Shown here piece by piece: positions 11,632 to 55,987 of a DNA stretch of 64,000 nucleotides. Positions within the stretch are counted from its first letter, which is position 1, and each line of letters begins with the position of its first letter. The stretch is from the NCBI GenBank assembly GCA_019235885.1, contig JAFAKB010000011.1, forward strand, positions 1 through 64,000, read 5' to 3'. The translations under genes were made by a program, and so were the position numbers. The stretch is from Candidatus Eremiobacterota bacterium. GTDB taxonomy: Bacteria > Vulcanimicrobiota > Vulcanimicrobiia > Vulcanimicrobiales > Vulcanimicrobiaceae. Under the pieces are notes generated by a model. The model saw nothing but the letters and a program-made list of their open reading frames with translations. It did no database searches and was not told where the DNA came from.

Positions 11632-13749
11632 TTACACCGCCTGGTAGCGTTTGAGCAGAATCTGCTGCGCGTCGACCGGGAGCTCGCCTGGGAGCACCGT
11701 GCGGCGCTCGTACGTGCCGTCGGAGCGCAGCACGCGCGCTTTGACGTTGTCGGCCAAGTAGACGTCGAGGATCTCGTTGCAGATCAGGTCGCGCAACAAC
11801 GGGTCGAGCACCGGGACGACGCTTTCGACGCGGCGGTCGAGGTTGCGGCCCATCCAGTCGGCGCTTCCGATGTAGACCTCGCGCTCGCCGCCGTTGGTGA
11901 ACACGAACGTGCGCGAGTGCTCCAGGAAGCGCCCGACGATGCTGCGCACGCGGATCGTCTCGCTCACGCCGGGGACGCCCGGGCGCAGCACGCACATGCC
12001 GCGCACGATCAAGTCGACCGGGACGCCGGCGCGCGAGGCGCGGTAGAGCCGCTGCACGACCCCCGCGTCGCTGATCGCGTTGAGCTTCGCGACGATCCCG
12101 CACGGCCGGCCCGCTTCCGCGTGCGCGGTCTCGCGGTCGATCAGCTCTTCGAACCCCGGGCGCAAGCCCACCGGGGCGACCATCAGCTGCTCGTAGTGGT
12201 CGGCCTTCGAGAAGCCGGTCAGCGCGTTGAAGAGCTGCGAGGCGTCCGCGCCGAGGTCGGCGCGGCACGTGAACAGGGAAAGATCGGTGTACGTGCGCGC
12301 CGTCCGGTCGTTGTAGTTGCCGGTCCCGAAGTGCATGTAGCGCCGGATCCCGTCCGGCTCGTTGCGCACGACGAGCGTCACCTTCGCGTGCGTCTTCAAC
12401 CCGGCGACACCGTAGATCACGTGCACGCCGACGCGCTCCAGCGTGCGCGCCCAGTGGATGTTGTTCTCTTCGTCGAAGCGCGCCTTGAGCTCGATGAGCG
12501 CGGCGACCTGCTTGCCGTCCTCCGCCGCGTCCGCCAGCGCCGCGACGACCGGCGAGTTTCCGGAGGTGCGGTACAGCGTCTGCTTGATCGCGAGCACGTC
12601 CGGATCGTTCGCGGCCTGCTTGACGAACTGCACGACCGGGTCGAACGACTCGAACGGATGGTGCAGGAGCAGATCGCCCTCGCGAATCGCCGCGAAGATG
12701 TCGGTCTGCCCGATCAGCCGCTTCGGGATCGCGGGCGTGAACGGCGGATCGTGCAGCTCGGGATAGTCCAGGTTCACCAGCGCCCACAGATCGGCAGTGC
12801 CCATCATCCCGTCGACTTCGTAGCAGTCGGTGCGGTCGAGCTCGAGCGCCTTGAGCACCTGCTCGCGCAGCGGCTCCGGCATCGCCGGCTCGACCTCGAG
12901 CCGCACCGGCTCGCCGAAGCGGCGCCGGCGCAATTCCGACTCGATCGCGCGCAGCAGATCGTCGGCTTCGTCTTCCTGCAAGTCGAGGTCCGCGTCGCGG
13001 GTGACCCGGAACAGGTACGAGTCCTTCACCCGCAGCCCCGGGAAGAGCGACTCCAGGTTGTGCGCGATGATGTCCTCGAGCATCACGAACCAGCGCTGGC
13101 CCTTGGGCGCAGAGTCGATCGGGACGAAGCGCGGAAGCTTGCCCGGCACCTTCACCCGCGCGAAGTAGCTGATCGGGCCGTCCGGCGTAGTCTCCTCCAG
13201 CTCGACGGCGAGCGAGATCGAGAGGTTCGAGATGTACGGGAACGGATGCGCCTTGTCGATCGCCAGCGGCGTGAGCACCGGGAAGACGCGCTCCTCGAAG
13301 TAGCGGCGCGTCGCGCGCGTCGTCTCGACGTCGAGCTGATCGACGGCGAGGATGCGGATGCCGTGCCGCTCCAGGGCCGGAAAGAGCTGGTTCTGCAGGC
13401 AGTCCGCCATGGTCGCGAGCGAACGGCGCAGCCGCGCGCTTACCATGTCAAGTTGCTCTTCCGGGGTGTGGCCGTCGTCGGAGCGCTTGTGGACCTCGGC
13501 CGCCAGCTGCTGCATGAGTCCGGCGATGCGGATCATGAAGAACTCGTCGAGGTTGGTCCCGTAGATCGCGATGAACTTGAGCCGCTCGAGCAGCGGGTTG
13601 CGCTCGTCGAGCGCCTCTTCGAGGACCCGGTCGTTGAACTCGAGCCACGACGTCTCGCGGTTGATGTAGAGCGAGGGGTCGTCGAGGGCGGTCGGCACGG
13701 CGAGAGACGGTGGGCGGAGCTGGGCGCCGACCTGCGAACCGGAGAGCAT
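11632..13749 (-). CDS. ppk: Polyphosphate kinase 1
   Basis: A protein of about 705 residues with the full PPK1 architecture: N-domain (YINRETSWLEFNDRVLEEA, then FIAIYGTNLDEFFMIR), head domain, and two phospholipase-D-like C-domains. The phosphorylated His is in AGLKTHAKVTLVV; RRYMHFGTGNYND and IGSADWMGRNLDRRVE complete the active site. It makes polyphosphate from ATP reversibly. The ATG at 13749 leaves only 21 bp to the divergent transporter gene. A GTG inside (before PTALDDPSLYINRE) is an alternative start that would leave more room for promoters and better matches the usual N-terminal length. Confidence 0.95.
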   Translation of the reverse strand: MLSGSQVGAQLRPPSLAVPTALDDPSLYINRETSWLEFNDRVLEEALDERNPLLERLKFIAIYGTNLDEFFMIRIAGLMQQLAAEVHKRSDDGHTPEEQLDMVSARLRRSLATMADCLQNQLFPALERHGIRILAVDQLDVETTRATRRYFEERVFPVLTPLAIDKAHPFPYISNLSISLAVELEETTPDGPISYFARVKVPGKLPRFVPIDSAPKGQRWFVMLEDIIAHNLESLFPGLRVKDSYLFRVTRDADLDLQEDEADDLLRAIESELRRRRFGEPVRLEVEPAMPEPLREQVLKALELDRTDCYEVDGMMGTADLWALVNLDYPELHDPPFTPAIPKRLIGQTDIFAAIREGDLLLHHPFESFDPVVQFVKQAANDPDVLAIKQTLYRTSGNSPVVAALADAAEDGKQVAALIELKARFDEENNIHWARTLERVGVHVIYGVAGLKTHAKVTLVVRNEPDGIRRYMHFGTGNYNDRTARTYTDLSLFTCRADLGADASQLFNALTGFSKADHYEQLMVAPVGLRPGFEELIDRETAHAEAGRPCGIVAKLNAISDAGVVQRLYRASRAGVPVDLIVRGMCVLRPGVPGVSETIRVRSIVGRFLEHSRTFVFTNGGEREVYIGSADWMGRNLDRRVESVVPVLDPLLRDLICNEILDVYLADNVKARVLRSDGTYERRTVLPGELPVDAQQILLKRYQAV

Positions 13750-13770
13750 GGCTTCGGACGGGTTCGGCGC

Positions 13771-14364
13771 GTGAGCGCGGACTTCATCGCCCACCTCGGC
13801 ACACACGTGGCGCTGGCAGGTTCGGCGCTCGTCCTGGCAGCCGCGATCGGCATCCCGCTCGCCGGGCTCGCGGCCGACCGCGCGCTTCCGCGCGGCGTGC
13901 TGCTCGCGCTGGCGGGCGGCTTCCGGGTCGTCCCCTCGCTCGCGATCCTGACCTTGGCGCTCCCGCTGCTCGGGCTGGGATTCCGGCCCGCGCTCCTCGC
14001 GCTGGTCGTGCTGGCCCTGCCGCCGATCCTCGTCAACACCGACGTCGGCCTGCGCGCGGTCCCGCGCGCGACGCTCGAGGCGGCGCGCGGCACCGGGATG
14101 ACCGAACGGCAGGTCGGGCTGCGCGTGCGCTGGCCGCTCGCGCTCCCGGTCGTCGCGGTCGGCGTGCGCACCGCGACGGTCGAAGTGATCGCCTCGGCGA
14201 CGCTCGCGGCGTTCATCGGCGGCGGCGGGCTGGGCGACTACATCGTCGGCGGCTTGCAGACCGCCAACCCCTCCGAGCTGTTCCTGGGCGCCGTCTCGGT
14301 CGCCGTGCTCGCACTCCTCGCCGACGCCGCGCTCGGGTACGCGCAGCGCAGGCTCGCCGTCTGA
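13771..14364 (+). CDS. Osmoprotectant ABC transporter permease (OpuCB/OpuCD type), first copy
   Basis: A 197-residue inner-membrane permease with six hydrophobic segments and the EAA-type coupling loop (ATLEAARGTGMTERQVGLRV). FIGGGGLGDYIVGGL is typical of glycine betaine/choline permeases. It begins at a GTG 21 bp from the divergent ppk start and ends 15 bp before the binding-lipoprotein gene. Together with the next three genes it makes a complete importer for compatible solutes such as glycine betaine or choline. Confidence 0.9.
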   Translation: MSADFIAHLGTHVALAGSALVLAAAIGIPLAGLAADRALPRGVLLALAGGFRVVPSLAILTLALPLLGLGFRPALLALVVLALPPILVNTDVGLRAVPRATLEAARGTGMTERQVGLRVRWPLALPVVAVGVRTATVEVIASATLAAFIGGGGLGDYIVGGLQTANPSELFLGAVSVAVLALLADAALGYAQRRLAV

Positions 14365-14378
14365 AACGTACGAGGCCG

Positions 14379-15272
14379 ATGCAACCCATGCTCTCGCGCG
14401 CCCGCGCGCTCACGCTGCTCGCCGCCGCGCCGCTCGTCGCTTCTTGCGGCAGCGGAAACGCCGCCGTCAAGGTGGGGTCGAAGAACTTCACCGAGGAGCT
14501 GATCCTCGGCGAGATCTACGCGCAGCGTCTCGAGCAGACCGGACAGCAGGTGACGCGCAAGCTCAACCTCGGCACGACCGACATCGCGATGGCGGCGCTG
14601 AAGCGCGGCGAGATCGACCTGTATCCGGAGTACACCGGCACCGCGCTGCTGAACGTGCTGCACTTGCCGCCGACCGGTGACCCGCAGCGCGCGTTCGACA
14701 CCGTGAAGAGCGCGTACGCGAAGCAGTTCGGGCTGGTGTGGCTCGACCGCTCGCCCTTCAACGACACGCAGGCGATGGCGACGACGCAGAAAGTCGCCGG
14801 CTACTACGCGCTCGGCCGGCTCAGCGATCTGGCGGCGAAGGCGAACGAGCTCCGGCTCGGCGCGGTGCCGGAGTTCCTCACCCGCGCCGACGGGCTCCCC
14901 GGCCTGCAGAAAAAATATGGCGGTTTCAAGTTCAAGCAGACGAAGATCGTCGACAACGGCTTGAAGTACGAGGCGCTCGAGCGCGGCGACGTCGACGTGA
15001 TCATCGCCTTCTCCACCGAAGGCCGGCTCAAGGCCGACAGCTTGGTGGTGCTCGAGGACGACAAGCACGTTTTCCCGGTCTACAACGCGGCGCCGGTCGT
15101 GCGCAAAGCGGTGCTCGACGCGAACTCCGCGATCGCGGGCCCGCTGAACAAGCTCGCGCCGCTGCTGACGAACGACGTGATGCAGAATCTGAACCTGCAG
15201 GTCGACGGCCCGCAGAAGCGCGAGCCGGCCGACGTGGCGCGTGACTTCCTCAAGTCGAACGGGCTCGCCTGA
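14379..15272 (+). CDS. Osmoprotectant-binding lipoprotein (OpuAC/OsmF family)
   Basis: A 297-residue extracytoplasmic substrate-binding protein. The lipobox LVASC gives lipidated Cys23. The mature start VKVGSKNFTEELILGEIYAQ and the segment RGEIDLYPEYTGTALLNVL are diagnostic of the QAT-family glycine betaine/choline/carnitine binding proteins. It delivers ligand to the two permeases flanking the ATPase. A GAGG sits shortly before the ATG at 14379. The gene overlaps the ATPase gene by 32 bp, supporting coupled expression. Confidence 0.93.
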   Translation: MQPMLSRARALTLLAAAPLVASCGSGNAAVKVGSKNFTEELILGEIYAQRLEQTGQQVTRKLNLGTTDIAMAALKRGEIDLYPEYTGTALLNVLHLPPTGDPQRAFDTVKSAYAKQFGLVWLDRSPFNDTQAMATTQKVAGYYALGRLSDLAAKANELRLGAVPEFLTRADGLPGLQKKYGGFKFKQTKIVDNGLKYEALERGDVDVIIAFSTEGRLKADSLVVLEDDKHVFPVYNAAPVVRKAVLDANSAIAGPLNKLAPLLTNDVMQNLNLQVDGPQKREPADVARDFLKSNGLA

Positions 15273-48863: not shown

Positions 48864-50039
48864 TTGCCGAGCCTCGTCGACGACGCGCCGCGGTGTCACG
48901 TCGCGGTCACGAAGGTCGCCAGCCGGTGCAACCTCAACTGCACCTATTGCTACGTGTACAACGCGGGCGACGAGACGTACGCGGCGCAGCCGCGTGTCAT
49001 GGCGCGCGCGACGGTCGATGCGCTCATCGAGCGCGCCGCCGAACACTGCGCCCGGCACGATCTGGAGTGGTTCGAGTTCGTCTTCCACGGCGGTGAGCCG
49101 CTGCTGGCGGGGCCGGAGTTCTTCACCTACTTCGCCGAGCGCGCCGCCGCACGTCTGCCGCCATCGACCGCGCCGCGGTTCAGCATGCAGACGAACGGCA
49201 CGCTGTTGACCGCGCCCTGGTGCGAGCTGCTCCGCGCGCTCGACGTGCGCCTCGGGATCAGCGTCGACGGCCCGCAAGCGATCAACGACCGGCAGCGCGT
49301 CGACCATCGCGGCAAAGGCTCGTACGAGCGCATTCGGCGCGGCTGGGAGCTGGCGCAAGCACACGGCCTCGATCCCGGGCTGCTCGCCGTCATCGACGTG
49401 CAGGCAGATCCGCTTGAAGTGTTCGCGCACGTGCTCGAGCTGAAACCGCGCAAAGCCGACTTTCTCTTGCCGCAGGCGAACCACGACAAGCCGCCGCCGC
49501 ACGCCGCGCCCGGGACGACACCGTACGCCGACTGGCTGTTGCAGGTCTTCGCCGTGTGGATCGACGACGCGACGCCGCCGGTGCGCATCCGGCTGTTCGA
49601 GCGGATCGTGCACGCCGTTCTCGGCCTGGCGAACGCGTCCGACGCGATGGGACCCGGCCGCAACGAAGTGCTGGTCGTAGAGACCGACGGCGGAATCGAG
49701 CCGGTCGACGTCCTGAAGATCTGCGGTCACGGAATCACGAAGACGCCGCTCAACGTCGCGCGCGACGAGCTCGACGACGCGTTCGCGATCCCGCTGCTGC
49801 AGCTGTACCACTTCAGCGGCCGGCGGCTGTGCGCGACGTGCAACGCCTGCCCGATTCGCGAGATCTGCGCGGGCGGCTACCTGCCGCACCGCTTCAGCAA
49901 AGCGAACGCGTTCGACAACCCGTCGGTCTACTGCGCCGACCTGCTGAAGCTCATCGCCGGAATCCAGAACTGGGTCGTCGCGCAGCTTCCGGCCGAGCTC
50001 ACCGCGCGGCTCGGGCTCGTCCCGCTCGCGCCGGCGTAA
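48864..50039 (+). CDS. Radical SAM/SPASM peptide maturase-like protein
   Basis: A 391-residue radical SAM protein. The SAM-binding cluster is Cys22, Cys26 and Cys29 in SRCNLNCTYCYVYN. FVFHGGEPLLAG, SMQTNGTLL and LGISVDGPQ are the usual core strands. The C-terminal SPASM domain has Cys287, 323, 326, 329, 335 and 357 (CATCNACPIREICAGGYLPH), enough for auxiliary Fe-S clusters. Relatives form Cys or C-C crosslinks in RiPPs or mature sulfatases. It converges on the MNIO RiPP operon with 3 bp between stops, and no sulfatase is nearby, so peptide modification is likely. Confidence 0.85.
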   Translation: MPSLVDDAPRCHVAVTKVASRCNLNCTYCYVYNAGDETYAAQPRVMARATVDALIERAAEHCARHDLEWFEFVFHGGEPLLAGPEFFTYFAERAAARLPPSTAPRFSMQTNGTLLTAPWCELLRALDVRLGISVDGPQAINDRQRVDHRGKGSYERIRRGWELAQAHGLDPGLLAVIDVQADPLEVFAHVLELKPRKADFLLPQANHDKPPPHAAPGTTPYADWLLQVFAVWIDDATPPVRIRLFERIVHAVLGLANASDAMGPGRNEVLVVETDGGIEPVDVLKICGHGITKTPLNVARDELDDAFAIPLLQLYHFSGRRLCATCNACPIREICAGGYLPHRFSKANAFDNPSVYCADLLKLIAGIQNWVVAQLPAELTARLGLVPLAPA

Positions 50040-50042
50040 GCC

Positions 50043-51074
50043 TCACAACTGCACGAGGTGCAGAAAGCGCGCGATCCCGTCGTGCTCGCCTTCGGCGTGC
50101 GCGACCAGCGTGCAGCCGGTTCGCCGGTAGATCTCCCGCCACGCGTCCAGGTTCGCGGGCGGCACGCCTTCGCCGGAGACGACTTGCGCGAGGTCGTGGA
50201 GGAGCGTGCGGCGGAAGCGCACCGGCTCGTCGCCGACCGCGCCGAGCCGGCCGTAGTAGTCGAACAGAAATAGGAAACGATTCGGGAAGAGCGCCTGGAG
50301 CGCGCGCAAGAAGTCGTCGACCGAACGGCCGCGGTAGCCCGCGGCGTACGCGTTCGCGACGCTGACGGCGGCGAGCGCGTCGACGCTCGCGCGGCGCTCC
50401 TCGGACAGCAGCACGCCGACTTCCGCGAGATCGCCGCACACCACTTCGACGCGCCCGTCCAAGCCGCGCGCCGCGAGCAGCTGCCGTGCTGCGCCGACGG
50501 CGGCCGGGTTGGCGTCGATTCCGATCCCGTGAAACGCCGGACTGCTCTCCGCGAGTGCGGCGAGCAGCTGACCGCCGCCGCAGCCGACGTCGAGCAGCAC
50601 GTTGATGCCGAGCTCGCCGGCGAGCGCGACCAGCTCGGGTGCGTTCGAGCCGGTGCTGGCGCGCCGGTACGCGTCGGCGTGCCGCGCGCGGTCGACGAAC
50701 CGCCCGGCCTCGGCCGGCGCGCGCATCACTTCCTGCAAGTTCAGCAAGCAGGGACCGAAGGCGCCGGCGTATTGATCGAGCAGATACGCGGCCGTCCCGC
50801 TCTCGCGGTACGCCGCGCTCGCGGTGAACCGCGCCCCGCGCGGATCGTCGATTCGCTCGACGAGGTCCGAGCGCAGCGCCGCGTACTCGAGCAGCTTCAC
50901 GAGCGCGCCGGCGTCGAAGCCGAGCCGTTCGGCGAGCGGCACCACGTCTTCGCCGGCGCCGAGCGCGGCGAGGACGCCTTCACGGTGCAAAAAATCGAGC
51001 ACCGCCGCGACGTACGTCCCTTCCAGCGCGTCGAGCAGCGTGAGGCGCGCGCCGTCGTGCGGAGCGCCGGACAT
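50043..51074 (-). CDS. SAM-dependent methyltransferase of the RiPP operon
   Basis: A 343-residue methyltransferase. The N-terminal part (about 10-90) is helical, like the dimerisation winged-helix of O-methyltransferases (LLDALEGTYVAAVLDFLHRE). The Rossmann core follows with the SAM motif LLDVGCGGGQLLAAL (160-174) and the acidic VVCGDLAEVG. It begins 2 bp after the radical SAM gene stop and is the last gene of the minus-strand RiPP operon. In aminopyruvatide clusters a methyltransferase acts on the carbon next to the MNIO-made alpha-keto acid; here that is only a hypothesis. Confidence 0.85.
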   Translation of the reverse strand: MSGAPHDGARLTLLDALEGTYVAAVLDFLHREGVLAALGAGEDVVPLAERLGFDAGALVKLLEYAALRSDLVERIDDPRGARFTASAAYRESGTAAYLLDQYAGAFGPCLLNLQEVMRAPAEAGRFVDRARHADAYRRASTGSNAPELVALAGELGINVLLDVGCGGGQLLAALAESSPAFHGIGIDANPAAVGAARQLLAARGLDGRVEVVCGDLAEVGVLLSEERRASVDALAAVSVANAYAAGYRGRSVDDFLRALQALFPNRFLFLFDYYGRLGAVGDEPVRFRRTLLHDLAQVVSGEGVPPANLDAWREIYRRTGCTLVAHAEGEHDGIARFLHLVQL

Positions 51075-51076
51075 CC

Positions 51077-53065
51077 CTAGCCGGCGGCGACGAGCGTGCG
51101 CCGCGGCAGCTCGCACACGAGCGCGCCGAGCTCGACCAGCGATGCGACGCCGTTCCAATCGGCGAACGGCTCCGTGCATCGCGCGGCTGCCGCGCCGTAC
51201 TCCCAGTACGACGCCGGCCGCTCGAACGCACGCAGAACGCCCGCGGTCGCCGTGCCGATCGCATAGGTCGCGACGATCTTTTTCCCGGCCGCGGGCGTGC
51301 ACACGAGCAGCAGCGTCGTGAGCGGGCCGTCGGACGACGTCAGCGGTTCGGCCTCGCCGTGTTCGAACCGCCGCAGCAGCGCAACGCAGTCGTGCACGTC
51401 CTCGAGCACGGCGGCGCGTGCGCTCAGCCGCAGCGCGACGTCGCGCGGGTCGCCGTGCGCGCCCAAAAGCGGGGGCGCATTCGGCTCGCGCGCGGCGCAA
51501 ATCGCATTCGACGCGTGCGCGTAGCGAAACAGCGAAACCAGCTGGTGGCGCGCGCCGAAGCGCGCGGTGAGGAACGCGATCAGGTCGGACGCGCTCGCGC
51601 CGTCCGCCGTGACGGCGCGCTCCCCGTACCACTCGTACGCTTCGCGCATGAAGTGGGCGAGGCTCCCGCCGAACGCGCGCAGCGCGCACACCGCGGCCGG
51701 GCGGCCCAGCGTGCAGAGCGCGATCCAGGCCGACGCAACGAAGACGTTTCGCGCGCGCGGGAGCACCGTCGCAAAGTGCTGGTGGTTCGCGAAGATCGCC
51801 GGCTCGGCGGCGAGCAGCGCGCCGTCGTCCGGGTGCAGGCGCGGAAAGTTGAAGTCGGTGACGTAGCCATCGAAGCGCAGCGCGGCGTGGTGCTCCTCGA
51901 TCAGCTGCGTGCCGGGCTCGGGGGTGAGCAGATGGATCTGCGAGGTCGTCCGCGCACCGGGCCGGCACCACAGGCGGCCGGCCATCTCGAGCGTCGCGTC
52001 CTGGTCGGCGCGCTCTTCGTCGGGATAACCGATGATGAACGAGGCGGTCGAGCGTATTCCGTTCGCGTCGCAGGCGTCGAGCACCGGCTCGACTTCGGCC
52101 AGATCGAGCCGCTTGCGCGAGCGCCGCTGCATGCGCTCGCTGCCCGCTTCGATCCCGAAGTAGATGCTGCGGCAGCCGGCACGCGCCATCGTCGACAGCA
52201 GCTCCGGATCGACGCAGTCGGTGCGCGCCGAGCAGCCCCACGTGTACGTGCGGTCGAACAGCGCCTCGCAGAACGCGCGCACCTTCGTGCGGTTCACCGT
52301 GAACAGGTCGTGGTTCAGCTTGAAGTCGCTGAACCCGTAGGTCCGGTGCAGGTGATCCATCTCGGCGAGCAGCCGCGCGACGCTCTTGAGCCGGTAGCTG
52401 CGCCCGAAGAACGACGCGGTCGAGCAGAACGTGCAGCTGAACGGACAGCCGCGACCGGCCTCGACGCGGATCGTTTCGAGCCCGAGCTCGCCGATCGGAT
52501 AACAGTCATACGCCGGGACGGGGAGCCCGTCGAGGTCCTGCACGATCGGGCTCGCCGCGCCGCAGACGAGCTCGCCCGCCGCCCCGCGGTACGAGACGCC
52601 GGTGAGCTCACCGAAATCGCGTTCGTGAACCCGCGCGAGGAGCGGGAGCAGCGTCTCCTCGGCTTCGCCGCGCACGACGAAGTCGAACTGCGGAAAGCGA
52701 TTCACGATCTCGCGGTGGAGGATCGTCGCGTGCGGTCCGCCGAGCAGAACCGGCAGCGCGAGATCGATCTGCTTCAGCCGGCGCGCGACGTTGACGACGC
52801 AGTGCATGTTGCAGCCCAGCGCCGTGAAGCCGACGACGTCCGGTCCGCGCGCTGCAATCTGCTCCGCCATCGCCGAGTAGAGCGAAGCGTCCAGCGCGAG
52901 CTCGCCGCGCGTCAGCGCCAGCTTCGGGTCGTACACCTGCGCGTCGACTCCGGCGCCGCGCGCGACGGCGACCAGCGAGAGCAGTCCGAGGTGCGGCTGC
53001 AGGTCGAACACCGGCGCGCTCGCCGTGCCTTCGTAGAGCAGGTTGTCGACGAAGACTACGCGCAC
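51077..53065 (-). CDS. Cobalamin-dependent radical SAM enzyme with long C-terminal extension
   Basis: A 662-residue enzyme. Residues 1-150 form a B12-binding-type Rossmann domain (MRVVFVDNLLYEG, PDVVGFTALGCNMHC, LPVLLGGPHA). The radical SAM core has Cys207, Cys211 and Cys214 in RGCPFSCTFCST, then FSDFKLNHDLFTVN, IYFGIEAGSERMQ and ASFIIGYPDEE. About 230 further residues after residue 430 do not resemble the core and include a segment VASLVELGALVCEL. B12-radical SAM enzymes methylate unactivated carbons. Its GTG start overlaps the partner gene by 10 bp. It probably C-methylates the precursor peptide. Confidence 0.88.
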   Translation of the reverse strand: MRVVFVDNLLYEGTASAPVFDLQPHLGLLSLVAVARGAGVDAQVYDPKLALTRGELALDASLYSAMAEQIAARGPDVVGFTALGCNMHCVVNVARRLKQIDLALPVLLGGPHATILHREIVNRFPQFDFVVRGEAEETLLPLLARVHERDFGELTGVSYRGAAGELVCGAASPIVQDLDGLPVPAYDCYPIGELGLETIRVEAGRGCPFSCTFCSTASFFGRSYRLKSVARLLAEMDHLHRTYGFSDFKLNHDLFTVNRTKVRAFCEALFDRTYTWGCSARTDCVDPELLSTMARAGCRSIYFGIEAGSERMQRRSRKRLDLAEVEPVLDACDANGIRSTASFIIGYPDEERADQDATLEMAGRLWCRPGARTTSQIHLLTPEPGTQLIEEHHAALRFDGYVTDFNFPRLHPDDGALLAAEPAIFANHQHFATVLPRARNVFVASAWIALCTLGRPAAVCALRAFGGSLAHFMREAYEWYGERAVTADGASASDLIAFLTARFGARHQLVSLFRYAHASNAICAAREPNAPPLLGAHGDPRDVALRLSARAAVLEDVHDCVALLRRFEHGEAEPLTSSDGPLTTLLLVCTPAAGKKIVATYAIGTATAGVLRAFERPASYWEYGAAAARCTEPFADWNGVASLVELGALVCELPRRTLVAAG

Positions 53066-53838
53066 GCGGCGCCGCTCGTGATGAACCCTTGCGCCGCGGC
53101 GTCGGCGAAGAACTCCTCGACGCGCGCCGGCACCAGCTTGCCGAACCCCAGCGCGGCGACGGCGGCGGCGACGTCGTGCGCACTGCGCCGCCCGTCGACG
53201 AGCGAGAGCAGCAGCCAGGTGAGCTCGTCGACTTCGAAAAACGCGACCTCCGCGCGATCCGGCATGCGCCGGTAGAGCAGGATCTGCTCGCGCAGCACCA
53301 CGTCCGTCGCGAAGTCGAAGCGCCGGGCGCGCAACGCCGCGCACGCGCGCCCGACGTCGACGCCGTAGCGGTTGAACGCCGCGCCGCCGCGCCAGCGCAG
53401 CGCCTTGCCCGGGCCGAAATCCGGCGCGTCGGCCGTGGTCGTAAGGCGGTGCACCGTCGACTCGTGCAGCAGCACGCCGCGCAGCAGCGCGCGCATCTCG
53501 GCCGGCCGCTCTGCGACGAAGTCGTCGAGCTGCCGGCCGAGCAGCTCGATGCGGCGCTGGTCCGAGAGTGGACCCTGCGCGCGCTCCGCCGCGAACGCCG
53601 GCGCGTAGGCGGCGAAGAAGTCGATCTCGGCGCCCAACAGCGCGAGCAGTCGGAACGTGCACGGCAGCACGGTGCGCAGCGGGTTGTGCTTGACCTTGGT
53701 GATGAACCCGGCGAACAGCGCCAGCTTCTTCAGATCGGCGCCCTCGAACACAGCCGTTTCGTCCGCGCGCGCCGCCGCCAGGAACGCCGGCTCGCTCAGG
53801 CAGCGCGCTACGAAAGCGTGAGCGCGGTCGGCGTCCAC
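53056..53838 (-). CDS. MNIO partner protein with PqqD/RRE-like C-terminal domain
   Basis: A 260-residue protein. The middle (NPLRTVLPCTFRLLALLG, FFAAYAPAFAAE, RQLDDFVAERP) is helical, like the DUF2063/MbnC-type partners that work with DUF692 oxidases. The C-terminal 70 residues (VAFFEVDELTWLLLSLVDGR, DVAAAVAALGFGKLV, ARVEEFFADAAAQGFI) follow the strand-turn-helix pattern of PqqD-type RiPP recognition elements. It would hold the leader of the precursor and position the core for the oxidase. It overlaps the MNIO gene by 31 bp and the radical SAM gene by 10 bp, which supports a complex. Confidence 0.75.
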   Translation of the reverse strand: MDADRAHAFVARCLSEPAFLAAARADETAVFEGADLKKLALFAGFITKVKHNPLRTVLPCTFRLLALLGAEIDFFAAYAPAFAAERAQGPLSDQRRIELLGRQLDDFVAERPAEMRALLRGVLLHESTVHRLTTTADAPDFGPGKALRWRGGAAFNRYGVDVGRACAALRARRFDFATDVVLREQILLYRRMPDRAEVAFFEVDELTWLLLSLVDGRRSAHDVAAAVAALGFGKLVPARVEEFFADAAAQGFITSGAACA

Positions 53839-54734
53839 GTCGGCTCACGCCGGTGCGCGGCTGCGGCGATGAGGCTGCGCGCGCGGCCAACGTCGCCCTC
53901 GACGATCTCGAGCGGGAAGCCGGCGTCCCAGTTGTACTCGATCGTCACCGCGCGCGGCATCGTGCGCGCGAGTAAACGCTCGAGCAGCTCGAACACGACC
54001 GGCGGCGCCGGCTCGACGTGATCGTCCCACGCGACCCCCGACTGCTCGCGCGCGCCCGACAGGTGAACTTCCACCACGCGCTCGAGCGGCAGCGCGTCGA
54101 GCGCTTCGAACGGGTCGGCGCCGGTGTTGCGGCAGGTCGCCCACAGGTGCGCGAGGTCGAGCAGCAGCAGCACGTCGTCCGAGCGCGCGCACAGCTCGCA
54201 CAGGAACGCGAACTGCGACATCGTGCTGCCGGGCATCGTGAAGTAGATCGGTCCGTTCTCGAGCAGCACCGGGAGCCCGAAGCGCCGCGTCCACGCGCCG
54301 AGCGCGGCGGCGACGCGGTCGATCACCGCGGCGCTGAGCTGCGGGCTGACCGTGTAGCCGACGTTGAACGGCGCGGCGGGAGCGCTTCCCGCGGTGAACG
54401 CGGGGTGCTCTGCGTATTCGCGCAACACGCCGTCGGCGCGCACGTACGCGAGGTGCTCGCCGAGCCACGGCGTCTTCGTCTCGGTGATCCAGCGCTCGAG
54501 CTGCTCGACGGTCTCCGCCGCGGGCGGAACGTTCCCGGCCAGCGACAAGCTCGCGCAGTGCAGAACGAGCGGCGTCTCCCGGCAGTGCTGCGCCACGTCC
54601 GGCGTGCCGGCGAGCTGCTCGAACGCGATCTCGACGAAGTCGACCAGTCCCGGCGCTGTTGCGAGCAGCGTTCGGGTGTACGGGCTGTAGGCGACCCCGA
54701 CCGCGGTGCTAGTCGATCCTTTGGTCGAAACCAC
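53808..54734 (-). CDS. DUF692 / multinuclear non-haem iron oxidase (MNIO) of the RiPP operon
   Basis: A 308-residue TIM-barrel oxidase. Metal-ligand candidates are in place: His59 (LVLHCASLSLAG), Glu93 and His94 (WLGEHLAYV), Glu159 (LLENGPIYF), Asp193 and His196 (LLDLAHLW), His224 (VEVHLSGA), Asp238/His239 (WDDHVEP) and Glu266 (TIEYNWD). Family members bind two or three irons and oxidise Cys, Asn or Asp residues of RiPP precursors. The GTG at 54734 overlaps the precursor gene by 26 bp; an AAAGGA further in has no usable start after it. This is the key enzyme of the locus. Confidence 0.88.
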   Translation of the reverse strand: MVSTKGSTSTAVGVAYSPYTRTLLATAPGLVDFVEIAFEQLAGTPDVAQHCRETPLVLHCASLSLAGNVPPAAETVEQLERWITETKTPWLGEHLAYVRADGVLREYAEHPAFTAGSAPAAPFNVGYTVSPQLSAAVIDRVAAALGAWTRRFGLPVLLENGPIYFTMPGSTMSQFAFLCELCARSDDVLLLLDLAHLWATCRNTGADPFEALDALPLERVVEVHLSGAREQSGVAWDDHVEPAPPVVFELLERLLARTMPRAVTIEYNWDAGFPLEIVEGDVGRARSLIAAAAHRREPTWTPTALTLS

Positions 54735-54894
54735 CGTCGCTGCCGAGCGCGAAGCCTTTGAGCTCAGAGGTGATCGTGAGCTTGCCGCGCTTCTCGATGC
54801 ACTCGTGGATCTTCGCCTTCGTCGCCTCGTCGGTGATGTTCACTTCGACGTGATACTTGTGCCCGGTGTCTCCGGACCGTCCTTCACTCGCCAT
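54709..54894 (-). CDS. Candidate RiPP precursor peptide (61 residues, ends in Asp)
   Basis: A 61-residue peptide starting MASEGRSGDTGHKYHVEVN, with AGGGGGCC just before the ATG at 54894. Residues 12-46 look like a structured leader (EVNITDEATKAKIHECIEKR, then KLTITSELK). The tail GFALGSDGGFDQRID has Asp at 53, 57 and 61, one every four residues, and ends in Asp61. The only Cys (32) is in the leader, so Cys-based MNIO chemistry is unlikely and Asp is the likely target. It is the first gene of the operon and overlaps the MNIO gene. No protease or transporter gene is adjacent. Confidence 0.7.
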   Translation of the reverse strand: MASEGRSGDTGHKYHVEVNITDEATKAKIHECIEKRGKLTITSELKGFALGSDGGFDQRID

Positions 54895-54970: not shown

Positions 54971-55987
54971 CTAGACCCCGTGAGCGAAGATCTTCCGCGC
55001 GAACCGGTAGACGAGGTATGCGAACGCGCCGAACACCAGCAGCAGCACGGCGAGATCGGTCAGCCCGCTGAACCCCGCGACGCCGTCGCCGAACAATGCG
55101 ACGGCCCGCGACGAGAGCCAGAGGTTCAGCCGCGCGACCGGGTTGACGGCGCGACCGTTCGCGTCGACCTGCGCCAGGATCTGCGCGGGCAGCCAGGACG
55201 GGTCGGGGAACATCTCGGCGATGCGGCCGTCGCGGTCGACGATCACCGTGTTCTCGGCGTGGATCAGCCCGCCGTTCGGATCGGGGAACGCTGCGACGCC
55301 GAAACCCGCGGCGAAGTCGAGCGTCGGTTCGGCGTCGCCGACGACGAGGCTCCAGCGCTTCGGATCGGCGCCGAACGTCCGCGCGTAGCGCGCGAGCACC
55401 GGCGGGCGGTCGTAGGCGGGATCGAGCGTCACCTCGACGAGGTGCAGGCTGCGCCCGCCGCGCTGCTGCTGGAGCTGGCGGAACTTCGCGCTGATCAGCG
55501 GGCACATGCGCGCGTCTTGGCAGCGCGTGTAGATGAACGACAGCACGACCGCCTGGCCGCGCAGCTGCGAGAACCGGAACGGCTTGCCGTTCTGATCGAC
55601 GAACGGCGTGTCGGGCACGAGCTCGCCGACGTGCAGCTGCTTCACATGACGCGCGCCGGCGTTCTCGGTGAGCGCTTGCGCGGCGCCGCTGCGCACGTTG
55701 CGCAGCGTCCAGGGTTCCGTGCGCGTGTCGACGTCGGCGTCGATCACCGCGCCGGGCTGAAGCTGCGCCGCACGTTCCTTCGGCACAATGCGAAACGGCA
55801 TCGTCATCGCCGGCATCGCGCCGAACGCGTCGTGGCGCACGATCGCTTCGCCGGTCTTGGGCGTCACCGCCAGGACGACGCCGTGCAACTGTGCCGTGCC
55901 GCTCGCGCAGGCCGGGAACGGCAGCGCGAGGGCTGCTGCGAGTGCGAGCACCACGGCGGCGAAGGCCGGCCGGCTCACGTTTGGCAT
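54971..55987 (-). CDS. Copper chaperone: CusF-like domain fused to Sco1/SenC, membrane-anchored
   Basis: A 338-residue exported protein. A signal peptide ends near ACASG. Residues 34-100 form a CusF-type copper domain (HGVVLAVTPKTGEAIVRH and AMPAMTMPF with Met ligands). The Sco thioredoxin-like domain follows, with Cys156 and Cys162 in YTRCQDARMCPL (CX5C instead of the usual CX3C) and a later IHAENTVIVDRDG holding the third copper ligand. A C-terminal membrane helix (TDLAVLLLVFGAFAYLVY) anchors it. It probably loads copper into the CuA or CuB site of cytochrome oxidase. Confidence 0.87.
   Translation of the reverse strand: MPNVSRPAFAAVVLALAAALALPFPACASGTAQLHGVVLAVTPKTGEAIVRHDAFGAMPAMTMPFRIVPKERAAQLQPGAVIDADVDTRTEPWTLRNVRSGAAQALTENAGARHVKQLHVGELVPDTPFVDQNGKPFRFSQLRGQAVVLSFIYTRCQDARMCPLISAKFRQLQQQRGGRSLHLVEVTLDPAYDRPPVLARYARTFGADPKRWSLVVGDAEPTLDFAAGFGVAAFPDPNGGLIHAENTVIVDRDGRIAEMFPDPSWLPAQILAQVDANGRAVNPVARLNLWLSSRAVALFGDGVAGFSGLTDLAVLLLVFGAFAYLVYRFARKIFAHGV

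Follow-up and report, generated by a model that had tools for sequence, protein, structure and literature searches.

An aminopyruvatide-type gene cluster of Candidatus Eremiobacterota in which an FxsB-type radical-SAM enzyme may take the place of the P450

Gene content of the locus

A 64,000-nucleotide stretch of DNA from a Candidatus Eremiobacterota bacterium (assembly GCA_019235885.1, contig JAFAKB010000011.1, positions 1 to 64,000; hereafter the window) contains a block of six genes, fxsB-apyS-D-I-H-A (Table 1). Judged by sequence, five of these, all on the minus strand, make up the aminopyruvatide set apyA-H-I-D-S, and the sixth gene encodes an FxsB-type SPASM radical S-adenosylmethionine (SAM) enzyme. 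The first-pass annotation of this DNA had described tightly linked minus-strand genes for a peptide, a multinuclear non-haem iron-dependent oxidative enzyme (MNIO), its partner, a B12-radical-SAM enzyme and a methyltransferase, and all five open reading frames are present. Its proposal of a ribosomally synthesised and post-translationally modified peptide (RiPP) locus related to aminopyruvatides is borne out by family searches, by the hallmarks of the precursor and by synteny in other loci. The SPASM radical-SAM gene that it had placed beside the operon proves to be of the FxsB type and part of the cluster.

Domain searches of the operon recovered PF05114 (MNIO) in ApyH (1.7e-39), PF02310 (B12-binding) and PF04055 (Radical_SAM) in ApyD, and a methyltransferase in ApyS. 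The best NCBIfam matches were NF050151 (ApyH) for ApyH (6.8e-106; 354 bits against a cut-off of 400), NF050149 for ApyI (1.3e-42; 146 bits against 200), NF050148 for ApyD (7.2e-207; 689 bits against 750), NF050150 for ApyS (1e-80; 271 bits against 400) and broader_ApyA for ApyA (3.6e-6; 27 bits against 40), the last being a cut-off that the precursors of three FxsB-type relatives pass, unlike the window peptide. ApyA nevertheless carries both ApyA hallmarks, the segment CIEKRG (a CBX3G motif) and a C-terminal Asp61. In ApyH, residues H59, E93, H94, E159, N160, D193, H196, H224, D237, H239 and E266 are invariant across 10 Apy homologues. The host genome also holds a second, more distant MNIO gene (G000:C2:26499-27293, L026), whose product shares 32% identity with ApyH.

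The partner protein ApyI had been annotated with a C-terminus resembling PqqD or a RiPP recognition element (RRE), and its AlphaFold model (predicted local distance difference test score 88) agrees, with TglI in the TglHI MNIO complex (E 7e-5) and NGO1945 as its best PDB matches. ApyD contains the cluster motif CPFSCTFC, and its C-terminal region aligns with the ApyI profile (E 6.9e-7), which is consistent with the RRE reported in Burkholderia thailandensis ApyD (PMC11117315). The FxsB-type enzyme matches TIGR04269 FxsB (1.2e-108) at 363 bits, just short of the cut-off of 370, and its nearest solved structure is ChlB (9gm3; 2.5e-74). All six genes are intact, cover their models and have a coding bias resembling that of neighbouring genes. 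As the first-pass annotation had stated, no P450 was found at the window locus; the host genome has three P450s elsewhere.

Table 1. Features of the six-gene block, in window coordinates
Feature	Coordinates	Strand	Remarks
apyA, precursor peptide	54712..54894	-	61 residues, MASEGRSGDTGHKYHVEVNITDEATKAKIHECIEKRGKLTITSELKGFALGSDGGFDQRID; ATG start after AAGGGGG (ribosome-binding site)
apyA stop codon	54709-54711	-	
Codons of C-terminal F-D-Q-R-I-D (F56 to D61)	54712..54729	-	Proposed Phe-X-Gln cross-link site and C-terminal Asp
apyH, MNIO/DUF692 oxidase	53808..54734	-	GTG start inside the 3' end of apyA
apyI, MNIO partner with RRE-like C-terminal domain	53056..53838	-	Overlaps apyH
apyD, cobalamin-binding radical-SAM enzyme with ApyI/RRE-like C-terminal region	51077..53065	-	GTG start overlaps apyI
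apyS, C-methyltransferase	50043..51074	-	NF050150 match over full length
fxsB, FxsB-type SPASM radical-SAM enzyme, proposed cyclophane synthase	48864..50039	+	Convergent with apyS, 3 bp from its end
Six-gene block fxsB-apyS-D-I-H-A	48864..54894		Between MFS gene (ends 48822) and SCO1 (54971-55987)

The block within its genomic site

The MFS and SCO1 genes that border the block adjoin each other, about 30 to 110 bp apart, in five congeneric genomes (G001, G002, G004, G006 and G008), and fxsB plus apySDIHA fills exactly this gap in the window. Since fxsB and the apy operon occupy the site together, the opposite-strand fxsB is part of the block. Two other congeners hold unrelated genes in the gap, which points to a variable site. 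The fxsB gene starts 42 bp past the MFS stop codon, and this gap and the 3-bp gap to apyS leave no space for another precursor in the window block. Inspection by eye of the four loci that carry fxsB beside apyS (described below) likewise revealed no shared small open reading frame upstream of fxsB that could serve as a separate precursor.

No close homologue of the cluster MNIO or of the FxsB-type enzyme (threshold for the latter 1e-40) was found in 60 relatives, and no ApyD match as strong as the window's was found in any other of 149 genomes of the phylum. Gain in the window lineage and loss in congeners cannot be fully told apart. Composition does not support recent foreign DNA, as the G+C fraction of the block is 0.707 and that of its flanks 0.70-0.72. 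Some congeners (G005, G006 and G017) encode ApyD-like enzymes, and we rejected these as the source of apyD: they have no MNIO neighbour and group apart at 100/100.

These ApyD-like B12-radical-SAM enzymes without an MNIO lie at L020:8779-10854, L021:9103-11082 and L022:1-1617, and a large gene for an HTH/TPR regulator lies close to two of them. In the congener G007, the gap between MFS and SCO1 holds a gene for a 1157-residue STAND-NTPase-like protein, possibly a defence gene (L056:7052-10525). The first-pass annotation had assigned the DNA to an uncultured-type lineage; this description needs amending, as the genus includes a genome matching the cultured Vulcanimicrobium alpinus WC8-2 (PMC9758169), in which the site between MFS and SCO1 is empty. 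That genome is among the congeners with an ApyD-like enzyme of the kind just described, and the window most likely represents a different species of the same genus.

Related loci and the precursor core

Genome contigs were scanned with an ApyD alignment (A1), a single-sequence query with the window ApyD having given no matches. The scan identified nine further loci at which ApyH, ApyI and ApyD occur together, and the gene order apyA-H-I-D-S recurs in loci of Pseudomonadota, Actinomycetota, Bacteroidota and Planctomycetota, which argues that the linkage is more than chance. A peptide gene is conserved next to the MNIO gene, and the affinities of the enzymes are with peptide pathways, the opposite of what the first-pass annotation had set out beforehand as counter-evidence. 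The published range of apy clusters is Pseudomonadota and Actinomycetota; the loci described here widen it to Eremiobacterota, with the FxsB-type enzyme, and to Bacteroidota and Planctomycetota, with neither ring-closing enzyme.

An fxsB gene adjoins apyS in Paracoccus limosus (L059; 51% identity to the window enzyme) and Tateyamaria (L060; 48%), and a later search of the genus Paracoccus added a second genome with this arrangement (L158; 52%). The adjacency is therefore present at four loci in two phyla, with convergent genes at three (the window, L059 and L158). Among the loci found, an ApyO-type P450 occurs only in Bradyrhizobium (L064), Planosporangium (L066) and Tahibacter (L069), and the loci of Isosphaeraceae (L061), Sediminibacterium (L062) and Streptomyces smaragdinus (L063) have neither P450 nor fxsB. 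A Mesorhizobium locus (L068) was excluded from this count of loci with and without each enzyme because its contig stops just after apyD. Sampling suggests that the cluster is rare. Family and class searches recovered it in 1 of 395, 1 of 395 and 1 of 385 genomes, the single hit being in each case the genome that supplied the query; in the genus Paracoccus, 2 of 125 genomes carry it. No ApyH relatives were found in viral contigs, and a search of plasmids returned only distant MNIOs of 33% identity or less.

Comparison of the precursors revealed a core motif that follows the presence of fxsB. The four FxsB-type precursors, all of 61 residues, end in GFDQRID, AFKQLID, AFQQMVD and AFKQLID and share a terminal F-x-Q-x-(I/V)-D, with F at -6, Q at -4 and D at -1. 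P450-type precursors end in GYKYD, PYLYD and PWLYD, and those of loci with neither enzyme in EVIVN, TQLID and GVIVD. F-x-Q is present in 4 of 4 precursors with FxsB versus 0 of 6 without (three P450-type, three with neither enzyme; Fisher 0.005, uncorrected for ancestry), and in a shuffled core F at -6 and Q at -4 coincide with a probability of 0.004. Over the last 24 residues of the window and P. limosus precursors, the sole identities are F(-6), Q(-4), I(-2) and D(-1). F-x-Q is also a candidate aromatic-X-X3 motif of the triceptide type, conserved in all four FxsB-type precursors.

We assign a probability of roughly 0.6 to the reading that the window holds a mobile aminopyruvatide-type RiPP cluster in which the P450 has been replaced by an FxsB-type SPASM enzyme, which would install a Phe56-Gln58 cyclophane before Asp is converted to aminopyruvate. 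Alternatively, the locus might be an ordinary P450-less aminopyruvatide cluster, with fxsB merely travelling alongside and serving a different peptide, or playing no part in making this product. The P450-less loci L061 to L063, which have no macrocyclase nearby, and the position of fxsB on the opposite strand, hence outside the apy transcript, fit such an arrangement. We nonetheless think it unlikely given the recurrence of the fxsB-apyS adjacency across phyla, the lack of a second precursor in the six-gene block and the occurrence of F-x-Q only together with fxsB.

Phylogenetic analyses place the FxsB-type loci on a branch of their own. A tree of concatenated ApyH, ApyI and ApyD sequences, in which the window ApyH nests among Apy loci, recovers one clade of FxsB-type loci (100/100) and another of P450-type loci (100/99); the FxsB clade is retained in a tree of ApyD only (89/90), in which the ApyD-like enzymes of congeners stand apart.

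Side observations at two of the related loci concern mobile elements. The L158 cluster has an IS21-like insertion sequence of 2,255 bp on either side (positions 1-2255 and 12695-14949), the two being identical, an arrangement that resembles a composite transposon. In Tateyamaria, apyS is split by an IS66-type element (L060:12478-14823), and the remaining cluster genes look intact.

Proposed product and competing readings

Among the closest known systems is the aminopyruvatide cluster of B. thailandensis E264 (ApyA, H, I, D, O and S), with which the window shares the MNIO, its partner, the B12-radical-SAM enzyme, the methyltransferase and a precursor with CBX2-3G and a C-terminal Asp. The window differs in having no P450 (ApyO) and no ApyO-type aromatic pair at -2/-4, positions that are Ile and Gln in its ApyA. 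In their place it has a SPASM enzyme of the FxsB type and F-x-Q at -6/-4, and its proteins fall under the curated Apy cut-offs. The first-pass annotation had inferred a distinct peptide class. The absence of a P450 does not support this, as the class-defining MNIO is found in 100% of published apy clusters and ApyO in only 74%, leaving 26% without it (PMC11117315), and the MNIO, the C-terminal Asp and the CBX2-3G motif are all present; what stands is a branch set apart by a core motif of its own.

Beyond the observed gene content, unity of the block, homology, core motif and phylogenetic branch, we infer each chemical step, the order of steps and the activity of the product. ApyI and the RRE-like end of ApyD would bind the leader, with the CIEKRG segment presumably needed by the MNIO. 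The FxsB-type enzyme would then join the ring of Phe56 to the C-beta of Gln58, forming a three-residue cyclophane at F-D-Q in the window and at F-K-Q or F-Q-Q in relatives. ApyD may C-methylate the precursor, probably at its last residue but one, which is beta-branched (Ile60 in the window, Val in Tateyamaria); in B. thailandensis this position is a Tyr, which ApyD methylates at C-beta (PMC11117315). ApyHI would convert Asp61 to aminopyruvate, a reaction that in B. thailandensis requires a conserved Cys, and ApyS, which methylates aminopyruvate in that species (PMC11117315), would methylate its beta carbon. Cleavage by a host protease would finally release the C-terminal part as a short cyclic peptide with an alpha-keto acid. 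This product would likely be a cysteine-protease inhibitor, a role made plausible by an aminopyruvatide that blocks papain-family proteases below 1 nM (PMC13192836), and the cluster could represent a second scaffold for very strong papain-type protease inhibitors.

The predicted cross-link draws on a comparison with triceptides and the enzymes FxsB, YhhB, HaaB, XyeB and ChlB, with which the window shares an FxsB-family SPASM enzyme and a candidate aromatic-X-X3 core motif. Enzymes that form three-residue cyclophanes link residue i to the C-beta of residue i+2, with Phe-Asn and Phe-Ser links known (PMC11002830). With Phe-X-Gln conserved beside an enzyme of this family, a Phe56-Gln58 cyclophane is the simplest reading. 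The window differs from the known systems in that its precursor belongs to another RiPP family, its Phe-X-Gln lies outside the reported Phe-Asn and Phe-Ser links and its enzyme is accompanied by an MNIO together with a B12-radical-SAM enzyme and a methyltransferase.

The FxsB-type enzyme might instead modify ApyA in another way, at F48-A-L, through a larger ring, or by epimerisation or hydroxylation. The precursor does contain this second Phe, and FxsB relatives act on varied residues among which a Phe-Gln pair is not recorded (PMC11002830). F48 is, however, not conserved in the other three FxsB-type precursors, whereas F56 and Q58 are, and the closest characterised enzymes form cyclophanes from i to i+2. 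We regard these other modifications as improbable.

Several observations weigh against a P450-to-FxsB replacement with a Phe56-Gln58 cyclophane. Every window protein of the cluster scores under its NCBIfam cut-off, and the Phe-Gln link is absent from the cyclophane links reported in the open-access literature searched. In B. thailandensis the P450 biaryl link precedes the MNIO step (PMC11117315), and since the MNIO there needs this cross-link first, the order of steps may differ here. The four FxsB loci, drawn from three genera, are only partly independent of one another. A Spirosoma enzyme from a different kind of cluster groups among the FxsB-type enzymes of the apy loci (99/98), so that a single origin of the latter is likely rather than established. 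Finally, the ApyH model scores the FxsB branch at 354 and 327 bits, compared with 453 for a P450 locus and 441 for a locus with neither enzyme, and these lower scores mean that the MNIO reaction could differ.

The last point is the basis of a further alternative, in which the MNIO catalyses some other oxidation, either of the C-terminus or of the conserved Cys, and defines a new MNIO class; the branch indeed falls below the ApyH equivalog cut-off of 400 that the other two types of locus pass. The retention of the C-terminal Asp, the CBX3G motif, ApyI, ApyD and ApyS, the action of ApyS on the ApyHI product in the known pathway and the nesting of the branch ApyH among Apy loci make this quite improbable. 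A decayed, non-functional remnant, for which the split apyS of the related Tateyamaria locus might speak, is very hard to reconcile with six intact window genes that cover their models and show neighbour-like coding bias.

Returning to the cyclophane reading, ring closure in this young RiPP class would seem to have been swapped between unrelated enzyme types, a haem P450 and a radical-SAM enzyme, with the class-defining MNIO step kept and the precursor core changed to match. The evidence leans somewhat towards a separate aminopyruvatide branch, present in two phyla or more, whose ring would be closed as a Phe-Gln three-residue cyclophane by a SPASM radical-SAM enzyme rather than by a P450, yielding short cyclic peptides with a cyclophane and a C-terminal alpha-keto acid. 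The cluster also bears on a predicted new Phe-Gln cross-link and on whether the MNIO needs a pre-formed ring. Titles and abstracts of the open-access literature searched contained no pairing of an MNIO or aminopyruvatide with FxsB, a cyclophane or SPASM, though an FxsB-type locus might already be within the published apy data set, unremarked.

A further point of comparison is provided by the biphenomycin-like pbs system, where an MNIO works together with a radical-SAM macrocyclase on a single precursor, as proposed for the window. There, a B12-radical-SAM enzyme closes the ring by cross-linking ortho-tyrosines and the MNIO hydroxylates Phe (PMC12257519). The pbs system has an FHAFRF motif, an arginase and a hydroxylase, none of which was found within the six-gene block.

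Two minor observations concern peptides at the related loci. Beside the L158 cluster (L158:2897-5036), a gene for a 78-residue peptide and a further radical-SAM gene may form a second RiPP system. In the Isosphaeraceae metagenome-assembled genome, the ApyA-like peptide beside apyH (L061:7751-7954) has Asn in place of Asp at its C-terminus (EVIVN); a C-terminal Asn is the reported target of a different MNIO, MovX.
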